Part shown: one piece after another, positions 4,452 through 27,743 of the stretch
Position numbering within the stretch: position 1 is the first letter of the stretch
Layout of the letters: each line of letters starts with the position of its first letter
DNA from: a virus
Strand: one strand, 5' to 3'
DNA length: 27,902 nucleotides
Virus record (IMG/VR): IMGVR_UViG_3300044627_001153
Span: 1-27,902 of that record
Translations under genes and position numbers: made by a program
Notes under the pieces: model-generated
What the model saw: the letters and a program-made list of their open reading frames with translations, nothing else
Told to the model about the DNA's origin: nothing
Databases searched by the model: none

Positions 4452-5791
4452 GTTCACAGCTTATGTCGGCATCGAAGTTTGTAGTAAATGAACTTTCTAT
4501 CATAACCAAGGCAGGTAAGATTGACATATCTTCAATATACGAAGAGATCAATATATTTGATTCCATTTTAATTCCGATTATGAATGGTAATGTACTGATC
4601 AATGATTCGGTTGGTCTGTCCTCTAAACTATTGTTCGATGGTTCTGAGTCTATATTGATTGATGTTGGTAAGACATCAGAATCCGATGTCTTGAAACTTA
4701 AAAAAGCATTTCGAATCTACAAACAATCTGACCGTAAGAACATCAATCAGACAAGTGAAATCTATGTACTTCATTTCGTTTCAGATGAAATGATGTTTTC
4801 AGACCAACAACTAATTAATCAAGCATACAAAACAACGTATTCTGATATTGTCAAAAAGATATTAGTTAATTATTTAAAAACACCTGACAATAAACTGAAT
4901 GGTAAGTTTGAAACTACCACTGGCATTCGTGATGTCGTTATACCAAATTTAAAACCTCTTGATGCAATTGAGTGGTGTGCCAAGCGTTCTATAGATGAAA
5001 ACCGTTCAGCTAACTTTGTATTCTTTGAAAACAATCTTGGATACAACTTTGCATCACTATCGTCACTCCTTTCACAGAAAGAATTGTTCACGATTAAGTT
5101 TTCACCCAAAAACTTAGAACAGACTAACGTAGTTGACGATTTGTTAAGTCCTCGTAATTTTGAAATCATTAATCAAGTTGATAAGATTAAATCAACTCGA
5201 TCAGGTGTTAATGCTGGTACGTTTATTGGATTTGATCCAGTTACTCGTTCTGTTGGTGTTAAAAAGATTAATTATGAAGATCATTATAATGCCATGAAGC
5301 ATGGCAATCCAAATCCCAATTACTTTTCTTCAATTAATCGCGGCGGTGACGATTCATCTCAAGCATTTGATTCAAGGAAGACTGTTAGTTCGTTTGGTGC
5401 GTTCCGTCGAGACAGTGCCTACATTAAAAAATACGATCCAACTTCTATTTCCAAACAGGAGACACAGGAAGATTTTATTTTTCAGCGTAAGGCAATCATA
5501 ACTAATCTGATGAACAAAAGAGTAAAGCTGGTTATGCCTGGTAATTTTCAATTGACTTCTGGTTTCAGTTTAAATCTTCGTACACCAGACTTTTCTATTC
5601 GTGAAACTGGCGGTGAGAATGATGATCGTTCATTGAGTGGGCGTTACTTGATTGTTGCTACTCGTCACATCATTGGTTATCAGAAACATGAAACTATAAT
5701 TGAATTGGCAACAAGTTCCAATGAACTACCGTTTATACCAACGGCAACAACTCAAGAAACAAAAGAAATAGAGAATTATGGAACAATCTGA
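4448..5791 (+). CDS. 27: gp27-like baseplate hub protein
   Basis: 447-aa protein that fits the T4 gp27 hub family (391 aa in T4). A gp27 trimer forms the torus holding the gp5 spike, and its two tube-like domains match the tail tube. Evidence is the segment 'PLDAIEWCAKRSIDENRSAN' followed by 'FVFFENNLGYNFASL' (residues about 172-205), a common hub motif of the form AI-W-A-R-N-FVFYE, and a C-terminal 'SGRYLIVATRHIIGYQKHET' block that resembles the last strand of hub domains. Position is also strong evidence: it overlaps the gp5-like gene by 14 nt and the gp53 gene by four. The residues after about 260 are specific to this lineage. The hub role is confident; sequence identity with T4 gp27 is probably low. 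Confidence 0.72.
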   Translation: MSSQLMSASKFVVNELSIITKAGKIDISSIYEEINIFDSILIPIMNGNVLINDSVGLSSKLLFDGSESILIDVGKTSESDVLKLKKAFRIYKQSDRKNINQTSEIYVLHFVSDEMMFSDQQLINQAYKTTYSDIVKKILVNYLKTPDNKLNGKFETTTGIRDVVIPNLKPLDAIEWCAKRSIDENRSANFVFFENNLGYNFASLSSLLSQKELFTIKFSPKNLEQTNVVDDLLSPRNFEIINQVDKIKSTRSGVNAGTFIGFDPVTRSVGVKKINYEDHYNAMKHGNPNPNYFSSINRGGDDSSQAFDSRKTVSSFGAFRRDSAYIKKYDPTSISKQETQEDFIFQRKAIITNLMNKRVKLVMPGNFQLTSGFSLNLRTPDFSIRETGGENDDRSLSGRYLIVATRHIIGYQKHETIIELATSSNELPFIPTATTQETKEIENYGTI

Positions 5792-6731
5792 AGACAGTAA
5801 AAACTTTGCTGGTAAAGGTGGTTTCATTTGGTTCATTGCGGTTGTTGAACGAATTAATGATCCGTTAAAACTTGGTCGGTGTCGTATACGATGTGTTGGT
5901 TGGCACACTGATAATAAACAGTTATTGCCTTCAGATTCTTTGCCTTGGGCGCAAGTTCTTTTACCGACAAACAATACAAACCCATATCCACCCCGTGAAG
6001 GAGATATGGTTGTTGGCTTTTTTACTGATGGTGAAAGTGGACAAGACCCCATAATTATGGGTGTTATGCCGGGTATCCCATTGGATGCAGCTAACCCACA
6101 AAAGGGATTTAGTGATCCACGGTCATCTTCTGAATTAGCAGCGGCACCTGTAAAGCCTGATGAGTCTGCCACAAACTATCCACGAAAGATAGATGAGCCG
6201 ACAACTTCACGTTTAGCACGAAATGATTCTGATTATCCGTCACCAATCTTAGCAGCAAAGAAATCCAAAAAAGCCAGTAAAGTGGAACCAGATTCTTACT
6301 ATGCTGCCAAATATCCGTACAACAATGTTTATGAATCTGAATCCGGACATGCATTAGAGTTTGATGATACTAAAGGAGCTGAACGAATTCACACTTATCA
6401 TCGTTCAGGTTCTTATGTTGAATATGGTCCACTAGGTGATCGTGCTGAAAGAATACAGCGTAACAAATTTACTGTAGTTGTTGGTGATGATTCTATTTAT
6501 GTTCAAGGTTCGGTGAAGATGTATGTTGATGGTGACTATGATCTGAACGTAACGGGTGATATTAGAATCAATGGTAAGACCGTCAACATTAATAAAGGAA
6601 CTATGGGTGCTGCTCGTATTGGTGATACTGCGGATACTGGCGATCAAGGTACAGGAAGCGATACTGATAATAATTCGGCAGGAACCAACGTAATTGAATC
6701 GGGTTCGGGTACAGTGTTCATCGGAGACTGA
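5778..6731 (+). CDS. 5: gp5-like baseplate spike protein lacking the lysozyme domain
   Basis: 317-aa central spike protein. Residues about 14-100 form the gp5 OB-fold, with 'FIWFIAVVERINDPLKLGRC' then 'PPREGDMVVGFFTDGESGQD' and PIIMGVMPG. A linker of about 70 residues rich in Pro, Ser, Asp and Lys follows, where T4 gp5 carries its lysozyme. Residues about 175-290 return to the spike-type beta-prism: 'SGHALEFDDTKGAERI', then short V-x-G-x repeats such as 'YVQGSVKMYVDGDYDLNVTG'. T4 gp5 is 575 aa; the missing length equals roughly the lysozyme plus part of the beta-helix. The product should pierce the outer membrane but not cut peptidoglycan. Its start overlaps the gp27-like gene and its last segment is Gly/Ser/Asp rich. 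Confidence 0.82.
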   Translation: MEQSEDSKNFAGKGGFIWFIAVVERINDPLKLGRCRIRCVGWHTDNKQLLPSDSLPWAQVLLPTNNTNPYPPREGDMVVGFFTDGESGQDPIIMGVMPGIPLDAANPQKGFSDPRSSSELAAAPVKPDESATNYPRKIDEPTTSRLARNDSDYPSPILAAKKSKKASKVEPDSYYAAKYPYNNVYESESGHALEFDDTKGAERIHTYHRSGSYVEYGPLGDRAERIQRNKFTVVVGDDSIYVQGSVKMYVDGDYDLNVTGDIRINGKTVNINKGTMGAARIGDTADTGDQGTGSDTDNNSAGTNVIESGSGTVFIGD

Positions 6732-11467: not shown

Positions 11468-13243
11468 TTGACGGATGTAAGTGTATCTACAATCAATGTT
11501 GCTACTGATCCACAATTCTTGACAGTTGCTGGTACCGTAAACGTTGGTAACGGTAGAATTACTGTTACTGGCACGAATACCAAATTCAATCTTGCAACTT
11601 CACGGGGTGCATTCACCACTGGTTCCAGAGTGGCTGTAAATGGGGAAATACGTACAGTTAATTCTGTCGTAAGCAATACCTCATTATTGGTATCATCAAA
11701 TGTCAATAGTATTCTAATTGCCAACTCAGGTTCTGGTTATTCAAATGGTTTCTTAGTCTTTGCAAATGGTGGTGGACGAATAACAAGTTTGTCTATTACC
11801 AACACTGGTTCAGGATACGAAAGTGGCAATGTTGTATTATCTGGTGCCGATGAAGCAATTCCTGCTGTTGCGACTGTGGTTGCGAATGCAACAGGACACT
11901 TACAAAGCGTTACGTTGGTTAGTGGTGGTTTGTATTCTGGTGTGCCTATTGCATTGCCAGCAAGTGAACCTCATAAAGTCCTATACGCAAATACAATTAC
12001 TGTTACTAATCGGGGTGCAGGTTACTCTAATGGATTCCTAAACTTCACTGGTGGTGCTCCAGAACGAGCAGCAAATGTTTCAGTGGAAGTATATGAATCG
12101 AATGGTGCAATCAGATTACTTACCGTTAATGATTCTGGATTATATGAAAGCAATCCAACTTCAGCATCACCAGATTCAAGTGCAAATGTTGTAGTGTCAA
12201 ATGTGTTCTCTTCCATCTTAAATGTCGGTGGCGCACACTCAAACGGTATAATTATATTCTCTGGTGGTGGCACAGCGAACCGTTCAGCACAAGTTGCAGT
12301 TGAGGTTTACTCATCGAATGGTGCAGTCCGTAGATACACAATTCTCGACTCTGGACTATACACAACCACACCTACTGCTGTATTAAATACCAGCCCAAAG
12401 TCTGTTGCTTCTATTAATGCAAATACAGTTACATATAACGGTGTTGCATTAGCAAATGGAAATCTTGTGTTTACTGGTGGTGGTGCTGTTACTGATGCAG
12501 CAGGAACATATGAAGTCTATGAGGCAAATGGAGTTATACGTAGCATCACAATTACTAATGTTGGTCTGTATCGTTCCACGCCAAATGTAACTACGAATGT
12601 TGTTCCGACTTCCATTACTGAAGTCTTTGCTACGGATGGCGGTTCTGGATATGCCAATGGTTACATTATATTTACTGGCGGTGGTGCCAACTCAGTTGCC
12701 AATGTTTCGGCAGTAGTAAATGGCACTGGAGCGATTGTTCGAACCATCATAAATAATGTAGGATTGTATGCAAATGGTAACAGTATTGGAGTCTTGAGTG
12801 TTATAAATCCTGCTACAGGATCAGCACAGAGTCCAACGATACCTGCGACATTCCGTATTTCTTACAATGCAAATACAAGCAATATTGCAAATCTGATTGT
12901 TACCACATCTGCTAACGCATTCTATACAGCAAATGTAACAGTTACCGCAAATAGTAACTCAGTAACGAATGCATCATTTACGATGTCTGGTGTTTCGAAC
13001 ACCGAGACGGTGGCAGTAATTGCAGTTGGATTTACCGGAACAAATACAGCAGCGCAGAGTTCAATAGAAGTGTATCCATCAAACGGAGCAATTCGTAGTA
13101 TTAGTATCAGTTCGCAGGGTGAGTATTTCTATGCTCCTGATGTTACACCAAACACAGGTGGCACTGGAGCAGTTCTAAGAGTTAATAGTGTAGGAACATT
13201 TAGCCAGACCGCAAATGGTCAGGAAATGATTATATGGAAATAA
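11468..13243 (+). CDS. gp7-like protein, C-terminal part with tandem beta-repeats (out of frame)
   Basis: The frame is open from 11405. The first possible start is a TTG at 11468, with no Shine-Dalgarno, so independent translation is doubtful. It is probably the C-terminal continuation of the preceding gp7-like gene. After 'HPVGFVNYAEFNKSNTIELT' comes a 'GTVNVGNGRITVTGTNTKF' domain like one in the upstream part. Then roughly six degenerate repeats of about 70 residues follow, with units such as 'VEVYESNGAIRLLTV', 'VEVYSSNGAVRRYTI', 'YEVYEANGVIRSITI' and 'IEVYPSNGAIRSISI', each preceded by a '(G)YSNGFLxFxGG' strand. It ends 'GQEMIIWK'. There are no membrane or catalytic features. The composition (Asn, Thr, Val, Gly, Ala) suits an extended beta-structure on the baseplate surface. 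Confidence 0.65.
   Translation: MTDVSVSTINVATDPQFLTVAGTVNVGNGRITVTGTNTKFNLATSRGAFTTGSRVAVNGEIRTVNSVVSNTSLLVSSNVNSILIANSGSGYSNGFLVFANGGGRITSLSITNTGSGYESGNVVLSGADEAIPAVATVVANATGHLQSVTLVSGGLYSGVPIALPASEPHKVLYANTITVTNRGAGYSNGFLNFTGGAPERAANVSVEVYESNGAIRLLTVNDSGLYESNPTSASPDSSANVVVSNVFSSILNVGGAHSNGIIIFSGGGTANRSAQVAVEVYSSNGAVRRYTILDSGLYTTTPTAVLNTSPKSVASINANTVTYNGVALANGNLVFTGGGAVTDAAGTYEVYEANGVIRSITITNVGLYRSTPNVTTNVVPTSITEVFATDGGSGYANGYIIFTGGGANSVANVSAVVNGTGAIVRTIINNVGLYANGNSIGVLSVINPATGSAQSPTIPATFRISYNANTSNIANLIVTTSANAFYTANVTVTANSNSVTNASFTMSGVSNTETVAVIAVGFTGTNTAAQSSIEVYPSNGAIRSISISSQGEYFYAPDVTPNTGGTGAVLRVNSVGTFSQTANGQEMIIWK
11860..13130 (+). repeat. Degenerate ~70-codon tandem repeats within the gp7-like C-terminal part
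   Basis: Equivalent positions of the 'VEVYxSNGAIR' strand fall at 12083, 12299 and 12509, with weaker matches near 11870, 12710 and 13064. This gives steps of 216, 210, about 201 and 354 nt. DNA identity between copies is low, so the repeat is seen mainly at protein level. Confidence 0.6.
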
Positions 13244-21583: not shown

Positions 21584-21910
21584 ATGGCTAATACGTTTAA
21601 AAACAACTTTCTCAAGGCTGCTGGAACTACAGCACAGAATGCTTATGCTGCTGGCGTAGGTGTTTCAGCCACAGTAATTGGCATGAGTATAGCCAATTTA
21701 ATCACAACTCCAATTTCAGCAAATGTAATTGTATCTTCTGGCGGTGTTGATTATTACATGATCAGAAATGCAACGATTGCTCCTGGTGGTGCATTAGTTC
21801 CAGTTGGCGGAGATCAAAAATTGGTACTGGAAGCAGGAGACTATCTACAAGTAAATACTTCTGTAGCATCTTCTGTTGACGTTATCACTTCGATTCTGGA
21901 GATTACCTAA
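21584..21910 (+). CDS. Small beta-rich virion-type protein A
   Basis: 108-aa protein, not assigned a T4 name. It has the pattern of a small beta-sandwich found among virion genes of marine phages: a hydrophobic strand 'ATVIGMSIANLITTPISANV', then 'YYMIRNATIAPGGALVPVGG', and the ending 'LVLEAGDYLQVNTSVASSVD' with VITSILEI. The 24112-24450 gene has the same layout. No signal peptide or catalytic residue is visible. A good AGAGGA Shine-Dalgarno precedes the ATG, and its stop overlaps the tail fibre start (TAATG). A role as a fibre-associated or surface protein is inferred from position. Confidence 0.65.
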   Translation: MANTFKNNFLKAAGTTAQNAYAAGVGVSATVIGMSIANLITTPISANVIVSSGGVDYYMIRNATIAPGGALVPVGGDQKLVLEAGDYLQVNTSVASSVDVITSILEIT

Positions 21911-23037
21911 TGTCTTATCTTGGTAATTCACCTGAATTAAATACTTTTACGATTGGCGTTGAGAAGTTCAACGGTTCTGGTGCGTGTACTCAATTTACTC
22001 TAACAAGAGATATTGACGATCCAAATTATATTGAAGTTGTCGTTGGTGGCGTTCAACAAACTCCAATTGATGCGTATACAGTCACAAACGGTATAATCAC
22101 ATTCAATACTCCACCTGGACTTGGCACAAACAATGTTGTTGTGATCTATCGTACAGGCACAACGATTGCTTATAATCAAATCTCTGCATCACAAATACTA
22201 GCGAATTCTGTAACATCAACTGGTCTAGCACCAAGTTCCGTAACGAATTCTAAGATTGCAGCAGGTTCAATCACTGGTGATAAACTTACTGATGGTGTCA
22301 TATCATCAAATAGTATTGTACTAAATGCTATAACAACAAATCTAATTGCGACTCAAGCAGTTGCGGGTAATCAGATTGGTCTTGGTGCTATTACAGGTAA
22401 TAATTTTGCTCAACCGATTACAGGTAATCTAATTGCAGATACTTCAGTGGCATCTAACAATATTGTTGTTGAGGCAATCACTGGGAATTTAATTGGTATC
22501 AAAGCGGTATCTGGTAATCAAATCGGTTTAGGTTCTATCAGTTCAAATCATTTTGCTGGTGGTGGAGTAACATCAGATGTGTTGTCAGCAAATTTGAGTA
22601 TTTCCACAGTTCGTATTTCTGAAACTATCAATGTAGTTACCACTCCAGTTAGTGGCAATTATCAGATTTATGTTGCTAATACCGGTGTTTATTATTTTAC
22701 AGCAAACGCCGCAGGTAGTGTGACATTTAATCTGATTGGTAGACAAGGTGTCAGTTTAAATGATTTGATTAGTATTGGTCAATCTGCATCTGTTGCAATC
22801 ATGTTGAAACAAGGTTCGACAAGATATCGTGCAAATGTTCAAGTTGATGGAGTATTACAAACATCATATTGGTTAAGTAACACGCAACCATCACAAGCAT
22901 CAGGTCAGAGTCAAGGTTTAGATGTATATAACTTTACTGTAATAAAAACAGAAAATAATGGATTTACATTACTTGCTTCAAACTCATCATACGCACAAGC
23001 AAACGGACAGGGCATGGGTCCTGGTGGAACTCAGTAA
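21910..23037 (+). CDS. Tail fibre protein with repeat shaft
   Basis: 375-aa tail-fibre-type protein. Residues 1-90 form a common fibre N-terminal domain: 'MSYLGNSPELNTFTIGVEKF', then NGSGACTQFTLTRD, 'YIEVVVGGVQQTPIDAYTV' and 'ITFNTPPGLGTNNVVVIYR'. Residues about 95-225 are a shaft of short repeats (I-x(4-5)-I, with 'GNQIGLGAITGNNF' echoed by 'GNQIGLGSISSNHF' about 50 residues later), consistent with a beta-helix. Residues about 235-360 form a tip domain with 'SLNDLISIGQSASVAIMLKQ', 'VDGVLQTSYWLSN' and 'GLDVYNFTVIKTENNGFTLL', seen in other marine phage fibres. Host contact is inferred. It is flanked by TAATG overlaps on both sides. Confidence 0.78.
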   Translation: MSYLGNSPELNTFTIGVEKFNGSGACTQFTLTRDIDDPNYIEVVVGGVQQTPIDAYTVTNGIITFNTPPGLGTNNVVVIYRTGTTIAYNQISASQILANSVTSTGLAPSSVTNSKIAAGSITGDKLTDGVISSNSIVLNAITTNLIATQAVAGNQIGLGAITGNNFAQPITGNLIADTSVASNNIVVEAITGNLIGIKAVSGNQIGLGSISSNHFAGGGVTSDVLSANLSISTVRISETINVVTTPVSGNYQIYVANTGVYYFTANAAGSVTFNLIGRQGVSLNDLISIGQSASVAIMLKQGSTRYRANVQVDGVLQTSYWLSNTQPSQASGQSQGLDVYNFTVIKTENNGFTLLASNSSYAQANGQGMGPGGTQ

Positions 23038-24092
23038 TGGCAGCAATAACTCCCATCACGATTGGTAGAGCAGCATTTGGTGCGAGAACAACTCGACCAT
23101 ATAATCAACCTGTATATGCAGCAGTACCGCCAACGATAGAATATTTACTTATTGCTGGTGGTGGAGGCGGCGGTCAAGGTCCGGGTGGAAATTTTACTGG
23201 CGGCGGCGGTGGTGCAGGTGGTGTTTTACAAGGTTCTGGTTATGGTGTTGCTGGCAATAGAACATATACCGTTGTAGTTGGTGGTGGAGGACCAAGAGCG
23301 CCAGGTGGAAATCAAAACGGTGTGAATGGTTCGAACACAGGATTTTACGCAACTGCCACAGGTGAAAACACTTGGGGTCGAGGTGGCGGCGGCGGTGGTG
23401 GAGGTTTTCCCGAATCTGGTCCTGGTGGTGATGTACCACGTGCTGGTGCCGCTGGTGGTTCTGGTGGTGGTGGTTCTCAACGTGATGGTTCTGGTGGAGC
23501 AGGAACAGGTGGACAAGGTAATGCTGGTGGATCAGGATGTAATGGTCCAAACGGTGGTAATGGTGGTGGTGGAGGTGGCGCAGGTGCTGGAGGTGGAAAA
23601 GGTTTAGGTCCGAGTGATGGTGGTGCTTGGCCAGCAGCACAACCATTTTCACCATTTGCCACAGGTGTTGGTGGTTATGGTAATGGTGGTTTAGGTGGAG
23701 TAGGTATATCAACTTCATTTGATGGAACACCACGTGCACTGGCTGGTGGCGGTGGTGGTGGTGGAGATTTAGGAGTTCGTTCATTTGGTGGTAGAAATGG
23801 GAGTCCTGTTGCTCCATTCCCCGCAACTGAACCTTTTGGTGGTGGTGAATCACGTGGTGATGGTGGTAATCAAAAAGGTGGAGGTGGTGGTGGCGCAGGT
23901 TCAAATCCTAGTGGTGAGGGTGGAAGTGGCGGTAGTGGAATATTTTGGATTCGATATCCAGCAGAATACGCTCCTATTCCAAACTCCACAGGTCTATCCG
24001 AATACACAGACAATGGAACATACAAAATATATAAATGGAACGGTTCAGGAAGTTGGTCATGGAATACACCAGGTGTTAATCCAGCACCATAA
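23037..24092 (+). CDS. Glycine-rich adhesin-like protein, single domain
   Basis: 351-aa protein dominated by glycine. After a 33-residue lead (MAAITPITIGRAAFGARTTR), a complete glycine-rich domain runs from 'IEYLLIAGGGGGG' (about residue 35) to 'GSGIFWIRYP' (about residue 312). It has long G-runs separated by loops with Pro, Phe, Ser and Arg. Such domains resemble the polyglycine-II helix lattice of gp38-type adhesins of T-even phages (S16 gp38). The comparison is by composition and pattern, so a receptor-binding role is inferred. The last 35 residues include 'YTDNGTYKIYKWNGSGSWSW', which looks like the first strand of another such domain that is not continued. It is directly coupled to the tail fibre gene (TAATG). 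Confidence 0.72.
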   Translation: MAAITPITIGRAAFGARTTRPYNQPVYAAVPPTIEYLLIAGGGGGGQGPGGNFTGGGGGAGGVLQGSGYGVAGNRTYTVVVGGGGPRAPGGNQNGVNGSNTGFYATATGENTWGRGGGGGGGGFPESGPGGDVPRAGAAGGSGGGGSQRDGSGGAGTGGQGNAGGSGCNGPNGGNGGGGGGAGAGGGKGLGPSDGGAWPAAQPFSPFATGVGGYGNGGLGGVGISTSFDGTPRALAGGGGGGGDLGVRSFGGRNGSPVAPFPATEPFGGGESRGDGGNQKGGGGGGAGSNPSGEGGSGGSGIFWIRYPAEYAPIPNSTGLSEYTDNGTYKIYKWNGSGSWSWNTPGVNPAP

Positions 24093-27000
24093 AACAACTA
24101 AGAGAAAATAAATGGCAAGAGCATATAAAATATTAGGTCAACTAAGTCCGTCAGCAAATGTACTGACGACTTTGTATACAGTACCTGCAACTAATTCCGC
24201 AATCATCTCTTCAATTACTATTGCTAATTTAGATGAGTCGGCAGCAAACGGTGCAGCATTTAGAATTGCTGCAAACACTTCTGGTTCTGCTACTGCTAAT
24301 GGAAATTATCTTGCTTACGGTATCAACGTGCCGGGTCGTGATGCGATTACATTGACACTTGGTATTACTCTTGCAGCAGGTTCACAAATATCAGTAAACG
24401 CTAATTCTGCTCTTCTAGCATTCTCAGCATTTGGTACTGAAGTCTACTAATGGCACTCAATAGAATAGCACTAAACAAAGTTTCACTCAAACGCATGACC
24501 GTGCCAGGTACTGGTGGTGGTGCTGCACCTGGTCCTGCTGCACCCACATTTTATACTGCGGTTCAAGTATTCAGTGGTTCACAAACATGGACACCTCCTT
24601 CTGGAGTATCCTCAGTTGATTGGTTAGTTGTTGCTGGTGGTGGTGGAGGCGGTGACCGTTATGGTGGCGGTGGTGGTGCTGGTGGTTATCAAACAGGAAC
24701 AGGATTAACAGTAACTCCGGGTACAACATACACTATGGCAGTTGGTTCTGGTGGTGGTGGTGCACCAGCAACTACTGTGAGTGGTAGTAATGGCTCAAAT
24801 TCAGGTATATTCAACACAAGTAGTGGCGCAACTTTAGTTAATTGGTCACTTGGTGGTGGAGGTGGTGGTTCTGAAAGTAATCCATTAGGCACTGGTGGTA
24901 ATGCTGGCGGTTCAGGTGGTGGTTCAAATTATAGTGGTTCTGCGGGTGCTGGAACGCCAGGACAAGGTTTTAGTGGTGGCACTGGTCAATTAACTGGCGC
25001 ATATAATGCTAGAGGTGGTGGTGGTGGCGGTGCTGGAGGAATTGGTGGAAATGCTAATTCTGCTATAGGTGGTAATGGTGGTATAGGAATCTTTTCCACT
25101 ATTTCAGGATCAAACACTGCATATGCTGCTGGTGGTGGAGGAGGTAGTGGTGGAAACATTGGCGGTATTGGAGGATTTTTAATTGGAGGCAATGGTTCGG
25201 CTGCTACCGCAACTGCTGCTGGTAACGGTGTTTTTTCAACAGGTTCAGGTGGTGGTGGTTCTGGAGTAACCGCACCAAACAACGGATCAGGAATTACTGG
25301 TGCAGGTGGTTCAGGTGTCATCGTTCTCAAGTGGACACAATCTACATCGACAAATGGTATCTTTGTTTTTAGTAATACAGGTCAATTCATTGTACCCACA
25401 GGTATATCACAAGTAGATTATCTTGTCGTTGCTGGCGGCGGCGGTGCGGGTGGTGGACATGGTGGTGGTGGGGGTGCTGGTGGAGTATTAACGGGTACAG
25501 GATATCCTGTTGGTTCTAATTCTGCAATAGCAGTTGTTGTTGGTTCAGGTGGTGCAGGTGGTATTGATTATGCTCCAGGAAATGGATCAAACGGAAGCAA
25601 CTCTGTCTTTGGAACAATAGTTGCACGTGGTGGTGGTTACGGCGCAGGTTATCAAGGTTCTCCTACTGCTGGATTCGGTGCATCAGGTGGTTCGGGTGGC
25701 GGTGGTGCAGGTCAAACAACTGGTTCGGGTGGACCAGGAACATCAGGACAAGGTAATGCTGGTGGTAATGGTAGTAATGGTAGTCCTGGCAATCAAGGTG
25801 GTGGAGGTGGTGGTGGCGCAGGAGGTGCTGGTTTGAACAGTGTTCCTGGTGCTGCAGGTAATGGTGGTATAGGAATATTTTCATCAATGTCGGGTTCTAA
25901 TGTAGCATATGCTGGTGGTGGTGGTGGTGGCACAAATGGAACTGCGCCATCAGTAGTAACACCTCCGGGTAGAGGTGGTGGTGGTTATGCATTATATTCA
26001 GCAGGATCACCTTGGTTAGGAACTCCATTTGGTGGCGGTAACGGAACTCCTCTTTCACCAGCAGGACCCGCAAACGTTGGCAGTTCAGCAAATAATAATA
26101 CTGGCGGTGGCGGTGGTGGAGGTGGTGGTGGAGCACCTCCTACTGTGACGGGAGGTTCTGGTGGTTCAGGTGTAGTCATCGTTTCTATTCCTACGACACA
26201 ACCAACTGTAGACAGATATATCTACACAGCATCAGGACAATGGACAGCACCGCCAGGAATTACTGCGGTAGATTATGCTCTTGTTGGTGGTGGTGGCGCA
26301 GGTGGTTCAAGTACAACAAATCAAGCAACTGGCGGTGGTGGTGCTGGCGGTTACTTAACTGGTACAAGTTTTCCAGTAGCACCAGGACAAACCTATCCTA
26401 TCATTATCGGTTCTGGTGGTGCTGGAACAGGTTCTCCTACTAATGGTGCAAACGGTTCAAATTCTTCTTTCTCATCTCTTGTAGCACTAGGTGGTGGTGG
26501 CGGTGGTGGTGCCACTGGTAGCGTTGGTATGTCTGGTGGCTCCGGTGGTGGAGGTTTTTTCAGTGCAGGTGGACCATCTATTTCATCACAAGGAAATTCT
26601 GGCGGTAGTGGCAGTCCAAGTCCTCCTTCATGGGGTGGTGGCGGCGGTGGTGGTGCTGGTGGTGCTGGTGGTAATGGAACATCTACTGAGGGTGGTGTTG
26701 GAGGTGCAGGACAATCAACAACACTTACTGGCACATTAACATATCTTGCTGGCGGCGGTGGTGGTGGTGCATCATCTGGACCTGGAGCAGGACCAGGATT
26801 ATCTACTGGTGCTGGTGGTATTGGTGGCGGTGGTCAAGGTGGTGGCATAGTAAATGGTGGTCGTGGCACTCCAGGTACTGGTGGCGGCGGTGGCGGTGCT
26901 GCTGCTAATTATGTTTCAGGTTCTGGTGGTTCAGGCATACTCATACTTAAACACTCAGCAACACAAGCAACAAGAGCAGTATTTTATGCATCAGGTTCAT

Positions 27001-27740
27001 TCACTGCACAATCAGCAACAGTAAATTATCTTGTCGTTGGAGGTGGTGGTTCTGGTGGTGGTAATATGGGCACTACTGCAAAAGTTGGTTCGGGTGGTGG
27101 TGGTGCAGGTGGCGTATTAACTGGAACTGGACACCCAGTAACACCAGGAACACAATATACAATCACTGTTGGTGCGGGTGGAGCAAGTTCTTTAACTACA
27201 AGAGGTTCAAACGGCACAAACTCAGTATTTGCTTCATTCACTGCTCAAGGTGGTGGCGCAGGGGGTTGTCAAATCGAAGGTAGTACAACTATTGTTTCTG
27301 GTGCCGCTGGTGGTTCTGGCGGTGGTGGTGCTTCAGATTCAGGATTGAATCCAGGTCCAGGTGGCGCAGGAACGCCAGGACAAGGAAACAATGGAGGTGC
27401 TGGCACATATAGTGGTCCTTCATATGGTGGAGGAGGTGGTGGAGGTGCGGGTGCTACAGGTTCAAATGGAACAAGCGGTGCTGGTGGTAATGGTGGTGCG
27501 GGTTTAGCATCATCATATTCTGGCACTCCAACATATTATGCTGGCGGTGGCGGTGGTGGTACATACACTTCAGGAACACTTGGGACAGGTGGATCGGGTG
27601 GTGGTGGAAATGCGGCTAGAGGAGGAACATCAATTGATGGAACTCCTAACACTGGAGGTGGGGGTGGAGCAAATGGTGGTACTCCAACTAATGTTTCTGG
27701 TGGTGCCGGCGGTTCGGGAATAGTCATCCTAACATGGACA
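23150..27740 (+). repeat. GGT/GGC-rich low-complexity DNA encoding glycine runs
   Basis: Long stretches of GGT, GGC and GGA codons recur through both glycine-rich genes, interrupted only by the 24093-24520 region. The composition differs clearly from the AT-rich neighbours. Such DNA favours unequal recombination and can also mislead assembly. Confidence 0.7.
24112..24450 (+). CDS. Small beta-rich virion-type protein B
   Basis: 112-aa protein, unassigned. The layout matches the 21584-21910 protein: N-terminal 'MARAYKILGQLSPSANVLTT' with LYTVPA, then 'SAIISSITIANLDESAANGA', 'NYLAYGINVPGRDAITLTLG' and the ending 'ISVNANSALLAFSAFGTEV'. This is a small beta-sandwich family frequent beside phage fibre genes. 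It sits between the two glycine-rich genes and overlaps the second by TAATG. The leader AAGAGAAAATAAATG holds a weak GAGA Shine-Dalgarno. It could be a fibre-tip or decoration subunit; the function is not known. Confidence 0.65.
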   Translation: MARAYKILGQLSPSANVLTTLYTVPATNSAIISSITIANLDESAANGAAFRIAANTSGSATANGNYLAYGINVPGRDAITLTLGITLAAGSQISVNANSALLAFSAFGTEVY

Positions 27741-27743
27741 TAA
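24450..27743 (+). CDS. Four-module glycine-rich adhesin-like protein
   Basis: 1097-aa protein made of a 37-residue lead (MALNRIALNKVSLKRMTVPG) and four tandem copies of a glycine-rich domain: residues about 38-295, 303-581, 588-836 and 841-1097. Each copy starts with a strand of the form 'VFSGSQTWTPPSG' or 'IYTASGQWTAPPG', then 'VDYLVVAGGGGAGG', a 'GGAGGVLTGTGYPV' turn, a 'YTITVGAGG' strand, an 'NGSNSVF' loop, long G-runs, an 'IGIFSSMSGSNVAYAGGGG' block, and a closing 'GGSGVVIVSI' strand. The pattern recalls polyglycine-II adhesin domains, so a multivalent receptor-binding tip is the best guess. The copies differ mainly in the loops between G-runs. It is the last gene of the coupled run. Confidence 0.75.
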   Translation: MALNRIALNKVSLKRMTVPGTGGGAAPGPAAPTFYTAVQVFSGSQTWTPPSGVSSVDWLVVAGGGGGGDRYGGGGGAGGYQTGTGLTVTPGTTYTMAVGSGGGGAPATTVSGSNGSNSGIFNTSSGATLVNWSLGGGGGGSESNPLGTGGNAGGSGGGSNYSGSAGAGTPGQGFSGGTGQLTGAYNARGGGGGGAGGIGGNANSAIGGNGGIGIFSTISGSNTAYAAGGGGGSGGNIGGIGGFLIGGNGSAATATAAGNGVFSTGSGGGGSGVTAPNNGSGITGAGGSGVIVLKWTQSTSTNGIFVFSNTGQFIVPTGISQVDYLVVAGGGGAGGGHGGGGGAGGVLTGTGYPVGSNSAIAVVVGSGGAGGIDYAPGNGSNGSNSVFGTIVARGGGYGAGYQGSPTAGFGASGGSGGGGAGQTTGSGGPGTSGQGNAGGNGSNGSPGNQGGGGGGGAGGAGLNSVPGAAGNGGIGIFSSMSGSNVAYAGGGGGGTNGTAPSVVTPPGRGGGGYALYSAGSPWLGTPFGGGNGTPLSPAGPANVGSSANNNTGGGGGGGGGGAPPTVTGGSGGSGVVIVSIPTTQPTVDRYIYTASGQWTAPPGITAVDYALVGGGGAGGSSTTNQATGGGGAGGYLTGTSFPVAPGQTYPIIIGSGGAGTGSPTNGANGSNSSFSSLVALGGGGGGGATGSVGMSGGSGGGGFFSAGGPSISSQGNSGGSGSPSPPSWGGGGGGGAGGAGGNGTSTEGGVGGAGQSTTLTGTLTYLAGGGGGGASSGPGAGPGLSTGAGGIGGGGQGGGIVNGGRGTPGTGGGGGGAAANYVSGSGGSGILILKHSATQATRAVFYASGSFTAQSATVNYLVVGGGGSGGGNMGTTAKVGSGGGGAGGVLTGTGHPVTPGTQYTITVGAGGASSLTTRGSNGTNSVFASFTAQGGGAGGCQIEGSTTIVSGAAGGSGGGGASDSGLNPGPGGAGTPGQGNNGGAGTYSGPSYGGGGGGGAGATGSNGTSGAGGNGGAGLASSYSGTPTYYAGGGGGGTYTSGTLGTGGSGGGGNAARGGTSIDGTPNTGGGGGANGGTPTNVSGGAGGSGIVILTWT

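Follow-up and report, generated by a model that had tools for sequence, protein, structure and literature searches.

The final complete ORF of the window, the 27.9 kb (27,902 nucleotides) stretch of viral DNA that we analyzed, encodes a 1097-aa protein that consists almost entirely of four glycine-rich modules in tandem. This protein is probably a receptor-binding fiber protein whose several binding modules would be variable and exchangeable. That putative role draws on a predicted fold like that of the Pam3 tail fiber, on matches to tail PHROG families, on the position of the gene beside baseplate and fiber genes, and on the variability of the loops, so that the adhesin function originally proposed for it now appears likely. 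The fold itself is known already; it is the tandem and positional-swap organization that appears to be undescribed in the literature searched. The features discussed below are as follows.

21584 to 21910, plus strand: 108-aa phrog_1276 protein, related to the 112-aa gene product (PHROG match)
21910 to 23037, plus strand: fiber-type protein in which an ...SGNQIG... motif recurs (phrog_892 tail fiber at E 1.3e-15, with phrog_5906, function unassigned, as the best match)
23037 to 24092, plus strand: single-module sister protein, 351 aa (PF21722, phrog_2295, module profile)
24112 to 24450, plus strand: 112-aa gene, phrog_1276, the same PHROG as 21584 to 21910 (PHROG match)
24450 to 27743, plus strand: four-module glycine-rich adhesin-like protein, 1097 aa (ORF with ATG; PF21722 and phrog_2295 four times each; shuffle control)
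24450 to 24548, plus strand: N-terminal segment, aa 1-33 (MALNRIALNKVSLKRMTVPGTGGGAAPG...), a putative anchor (related segments before modules in relatives)
24555 to 25340, plus strand: module 1 (profile match; 82% identical to module 1 of relative L004)
25344 to 26192, plus strand: module 2 (profile match; groups with module 2 of relatives)
26196 to 26957, plus strand: module 3 (profile match; AF2 model of modules 3-4, pLDDT 93)
26961 to 27740, plus strand: module 4 (profile match; AF2 model of modules 3-4)

Four glycine-rich modules in tandem

Glycine makes up 36% of the protein (395 of 1097 residues), and a single Pfam family, PF21722 (Gly_rich_2), matches it in 4 stretches (E 4.5e-77) with 259.5 bits against a curated cut-off of 24.3 bits. 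The protein also belongs to phrog_2295 (E 5.9e-156, four stretches), and its other PHROG matches are the tail families phrog_863, annotated as "tail fiber assembly," and phrog_6202. A module profile made from other loci, with the window's own modules left out, yields four near full-length matches (aa 35-297, 302-579, 587-836, and 840-1097) and 703.6 bits in total. The best score against this profile was -196 among 100 full shuffles of the protein and 114 bits among 100 shuffles that keep the glycine positions. Because the profile score lies far above those of the shuffled controls, the four repeated modules are real, and the original prediction of a whole polyglycine-type domain repeated four times is supported. 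In alignments, modules 2-4 show 47-55% identity with module 1 or with one another, the linkers between modules are a few residues only, and about 33-34 residues before module 1 lie outside any module.

Related short N-terminal segments (e.g., MPIRKFTNGRFSLKRFTAPG) stand before two, three, or four modules in relatives, so that a single kind of segment can be followed by different numbers of modules. The 112-aa gene shares its last base with the start of the adhesin gene, and its homologs lie directly upstream in 35 of the 107 module-bearing genes. Its product may be a co-translated partner, perhaps an adaptor. The window contains two phrog_1276-type genes, and this family together with a module gene forms a recurring two-gene cassette in about a third of those sampled.

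Predicted fold and its solved relatives

Modeled together with an alignment of 90 tandem pairs from the window and its relatives, modules 3 and 4 are predicted by AF2 at a pLDDT of 93 and a pTM of 0.67; a single module from sequence alone reaches a pLDDT of 37. The fold of the module is confidently predicted, and the relative placement of modules is uncertain because the pTM is only 0.67. In a Foldseek search of the PDB the query was this predicted two-module model, which depresses TM-scores, and the best match was the Pam3 tail fiber (7ypx, E 1e-6, prob 1.00, TMt 0.50), followed by Bxb1 tail-tip chains (9d93, E ~1e-5) and, as a weak third, by the glycine-rich domain of ALK (E 0.03-0.9). When PDB sequences were searched by profile, the Pam3 fiber again came first, weakly (E 0.015), and among predicted viral structures (BFVD) there were 265 matches at E ≤ 0.001, including a Bellamy protein (the second match) and the halovirus HF2 protein Q8V6M2. 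By structure comparison, the predicted model has the Pam3-gp24-type glycine-rich fold, a beta-sandwich with a glycine-rich lattice. At the level of alignment columns, the modules have conserved G-runs and variable loops, features of a putative polyglycine II lattice. As the ALK match shows, the fold also occurs outside adhesins.

Pam3 gp24 (7ypx, 7yfw), the best solved-structure match, is the fiber of a cyanophage myovirus and shares the TNF-like beta-sandwich, the glycine-rich lattice, and the variable tips. The published account of this fiber describes a TNF-like domain together with a glycine-rich lattice whose distal tips vary, remarks on the likeness to ALK, and attributes host recognition to these two domains (PMC9608196). 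Pam3 gp24 has one module per subunit, an N-terminal alpha-helical docking domain, and a trimeric assembly (PMC9608196), whereas the window protein has four modules after a short segment; a Pam3-type N-terminal alpha-helical trimerization/docking domain is absent, as the ~34 residues before module 1 leave no room for it in the ORF. The second-best solved match, the Bxb1 tail-tip protein (9d93 chains Qa/Qb), comes from a phage tail tip but belongs to a mycobacteriophage siphovirus tail, and its chains of 229-230 residues cover about one module, while the weak resemblance to ALK concerns an animal receptor rather than a phage protein. For the Gly-rich domain of Klebsiella phage TFP_Y, changes at residues Thr169 and Ser209 are reported to have made resistant bacteria sensitive again (PMC12671077). 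Since Pam3 gp24 and Klebsiella phage TFP_Y are characterized proteins with the fold of the window's modules, we count both in favor of the receptor-binding reading. The host range of hafunaviruses has been tied to a Gly-rich adhesin (PMC8651126); the Gly-rich HF2 protein Q8V6M2, a structural match to our model, may or may not be the product of the adhesin gene of that study. Gly-rich tip domains decide host range in several characterized phages, and the described ones carry one.

T-even gp38 (S16, 6F45; PP01), to which the protein had been likened, displays hypervariable loops on a polyglycine lattice that sits at the fiber tip, and it decides host range, and loop contacts with OmpC have been shown for PP01 gp38 (PMC12892980). 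It differs in having its own Pfam and PHROG families, a single lattice, and a beta-helix where the modules have a TNF-like sandwich (PMC9608196, PMC12892980). S16 gp38 belongs to PF05268 (GP38), PF21721 (Gp38_N), and phrog_2056, whereas the window protein belongs to PF21722 and phrog_2295, and a Pfam search found neither GP38 nor Gp38_N in it. Against the module profile S16 gp38 scores -14 bits, which 72 of 100 of its Gly-keeping shuffles equal or exceed, and 6F45 is not among the 34 PDB matches of the module model at E ≤ 10 in Foldseek. The missing gp38 families, the shuffle-level profile score, and the lack of a Foldseek match exclude the 1097-aa protein as a gp38, and the suggested kinship is not supported; gp38 is a sound functional analogy, with its Gly framework and variable loops.

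Tandem modules in other viral contigs

Every locus fetched in searches of viral contigs was scanned for modules, which yielded 118 distinct ORFs. One copy is present in 52 of them, two in 39, three in 12, four in 9 (the window protein and eight others), and five in 1, and the remaining 5 have partial modules only. These proportions are not frequencies, since multi-copy proteins were used as queries and the sample is biased accordingly. Tblastn of phage records with the adhesin or with a 77-aa start segment returned no match, and a scan of genome contigs confirmed no relatives; the low-complexity filter probably strips such queries, and these negatives do not count as evidence that relatives are lacking. 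Pfam finds four or five PF21722 stretches in six of the 118 ORFs, and PF21722 is present in 8 of 13 phage records, most of the 13 picked by gp6 similarity. One of the phages with tandem modules is an isolate, Synechococcus phage Bellamy, in which genes 33, 38, 41 (phrog_2295), and 51 of the tail-fiber region are annotated as hypothetical and encode four PF21722 proteins with two modules each rather than four. Judged by these sequences, the four-copy layout is a recurring architecture in viral contigs that is unlabelled in annotations. A literature search for tandem polyglycine adhesins, with many subscription papers outside its scope, returned no published description. The layout had been proposed as one without a described phage counterpart, and it does stand as undescribed as a tandem adhesin in the literature searched, but it is not unique, since proteins with 2 to 5 copies recur in aquatic phages. 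Common four-copy proteins with another known role were to count against the original prediction; such proteins do recur, yet without any other known role.

The highest count seen is that of a 1386-aa protein with five modules (L083:4936-9093). In another locus (L008:3571-10708), two different four-module proteins are encoded side by side, and a separate small gene precedes each of them; one phage can therefore hold at least eight modules.

Variable loops, positional lineages, and apparent module exchange

Aligned with one another, the four modules of the window share 79% identity in framework columns and 19% in loop columns. Over seven close module pairs, with column classes defined from other modules, pN/pS is 0.47 in loops and 0.11 in the framework. 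On these ratios the loops are less constrained than the framework, and values below 1 give no indication of positive selection. The constant G-run lattice and the variable loops that had been read from the sequence are supported.

In a tree of 71 modules, module 2 of the window groups with the second modules of relatives (support 99/96; it lies in a 12-row set at 97/94), and the third modules of these relatives likewise make up a group specific to their position (93/99, drawn open). Fourth modules are mostly together, and the window's own is placed without support; its nearest BLAST match is a third module, that of L008. Across seven four-copy proteins, mean identity is 55-63% between modules at the same position versus 46.5% at different positions. 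As far as the tree and these identities indicate, modules keep their positional identity across relatives, with the window's module 4 unsupported.

Single modules also appear to have been exchanged whole between phages. The second modules of L004 and L007 are 92% identical with flanks of about 51%, those of L006 and L030 are 92% identical, and the fourth modules of L004 and L008 are 94% identical. The steps in identity of these pairs fall near module boundaries, a pattern such as the exchange of whole modules would leave. Assembly chimerism is an unlikely source of the swapped modules, as the three separate pairs come from different contigs and datasets and show 6-8% protein difference with clear synonymous differences, more than the almost complete identity expected of a chimera.

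A proposed role and its alternatives

We propose that a T4-like aquatic phage carries the 1097-aa protein distally on its tail fiber or at the periphery of its baseplate, where it would bind the receptor. The short N-terminal segment would dock it to the fiber or baseplate, possibly via the small protein encoded upstream. Each of the four tandem modules would combine a beta-sandwich with a polyglycine lattice of the Pam3-gp24 kind, in which the lattice is built by the conserved Gly runs; the intervening loops, almost wholly different among modules, may form the surface that contacts the receptor. Since the loops differ among modules, the chain would offer several different binding surfaces. 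Specificity could be diversified by whole-module exchange at fixed positions and by changes in module number, whole modules being exchangeable because each is a self-contained in-frame cassette.

If different modules bind different targets, the protein would be a multi-specific adhesin with a swappable receptor-binding slot at each position, a possibility to which we give somewhat less than an even chance. Host range would then be widened or shifted by slot-wise module swaps and by the gain or loss of slots, a fiber-based counterpart to carrying several different tailspikes. The chain could instead be a spacer or avidity device in which all modules weakly bind one abundant surface glycan and their number sets reach and avidity. 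The two, three, or four modules behind the same N-terminal segment would suit such flexibility, and mycobacteriophage baseplate accessory proteins do bind cell-wall glycans (PMC13252515), but the 19% loop identity and the positional lineages fit different ligands better than one, and we consider this explanation unlikely, though a serious contender. It is more doubtful still that the modules form an intrachain pseudo-oligomer replacing the Pam3 gp24 trimer, with the whole four-module head as the binding unit. The trimer of one-module subunits (PMC9608196) and linkers of just a few residues make such an arrangement conceivable, but no fixed symmetry explains a module number ranging from 1 to 5, and single modules appear exchanged.

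T4 gp38 is a tail-fiber assembly chaperone outside the virion. A comparable non-virion role for the 1097-aa protein is very improbable, despite the annotation of phrog_863, given that its strongest family is phrog_2295, that no chaperone family was matched, that its fold is that of the Pam3 fiber and not of the Pam3 chaperone gp25, and that its size and variable loops are as expected of a displayed protein. A glycine content of 36% and a single-sequence pLDDT of 37 are what low-complexity sequence lacking a defined fold would give, but the pLDDT of 93 with an alignment and the gap between 703.6 bits and the ≤114 bits of Gly-keeping shuffles refute chance or low complexity as an account of the modules. 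If the multi-module receptor-binding reading is right, tandem chains, positional lineages, and whole-module exchange would together provide a clear, testable rule for aquatic phage host recognition, and would aid the annotation of many "hypothetical" proteins, such as those of phrog_2295, whose function is unassigned.

Genome context of the window

The window is a viral record that contains a T4-like tail block, with family matches to a DNA end protector, tail tube, head closure, and baseplate types gp48, 53, 5-OB, 25, 6, and 8, after which come a 2048-aa phrog_358 protein and then fiber-type genes. Its gp6 homolog is most similar to that of Methylophilales phage Melnitz (41.6% identity), followed by those of pelagiphages and cyanophages. 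The adhesin gene lies downstream of the gp25-, gp6-, and gp8-type baseplate genes and one fiber-type gene. The single-module sister protein is very divergent: its branch in the module tree is long, and its letter composition is unusual. Between the baseplate genes, an ORF of 591 aa with a TTG start (11468-13243) had no match in PHROG and a sub-threshold GH85_C match alone in Pfam. The gp5 homolog (5778-6731) has 317 aa and Gp5_OB as its only Pfam domain, without a lysozyme domain; Melnitz has a separate hub/lysozyme gene after an OB-only protein.
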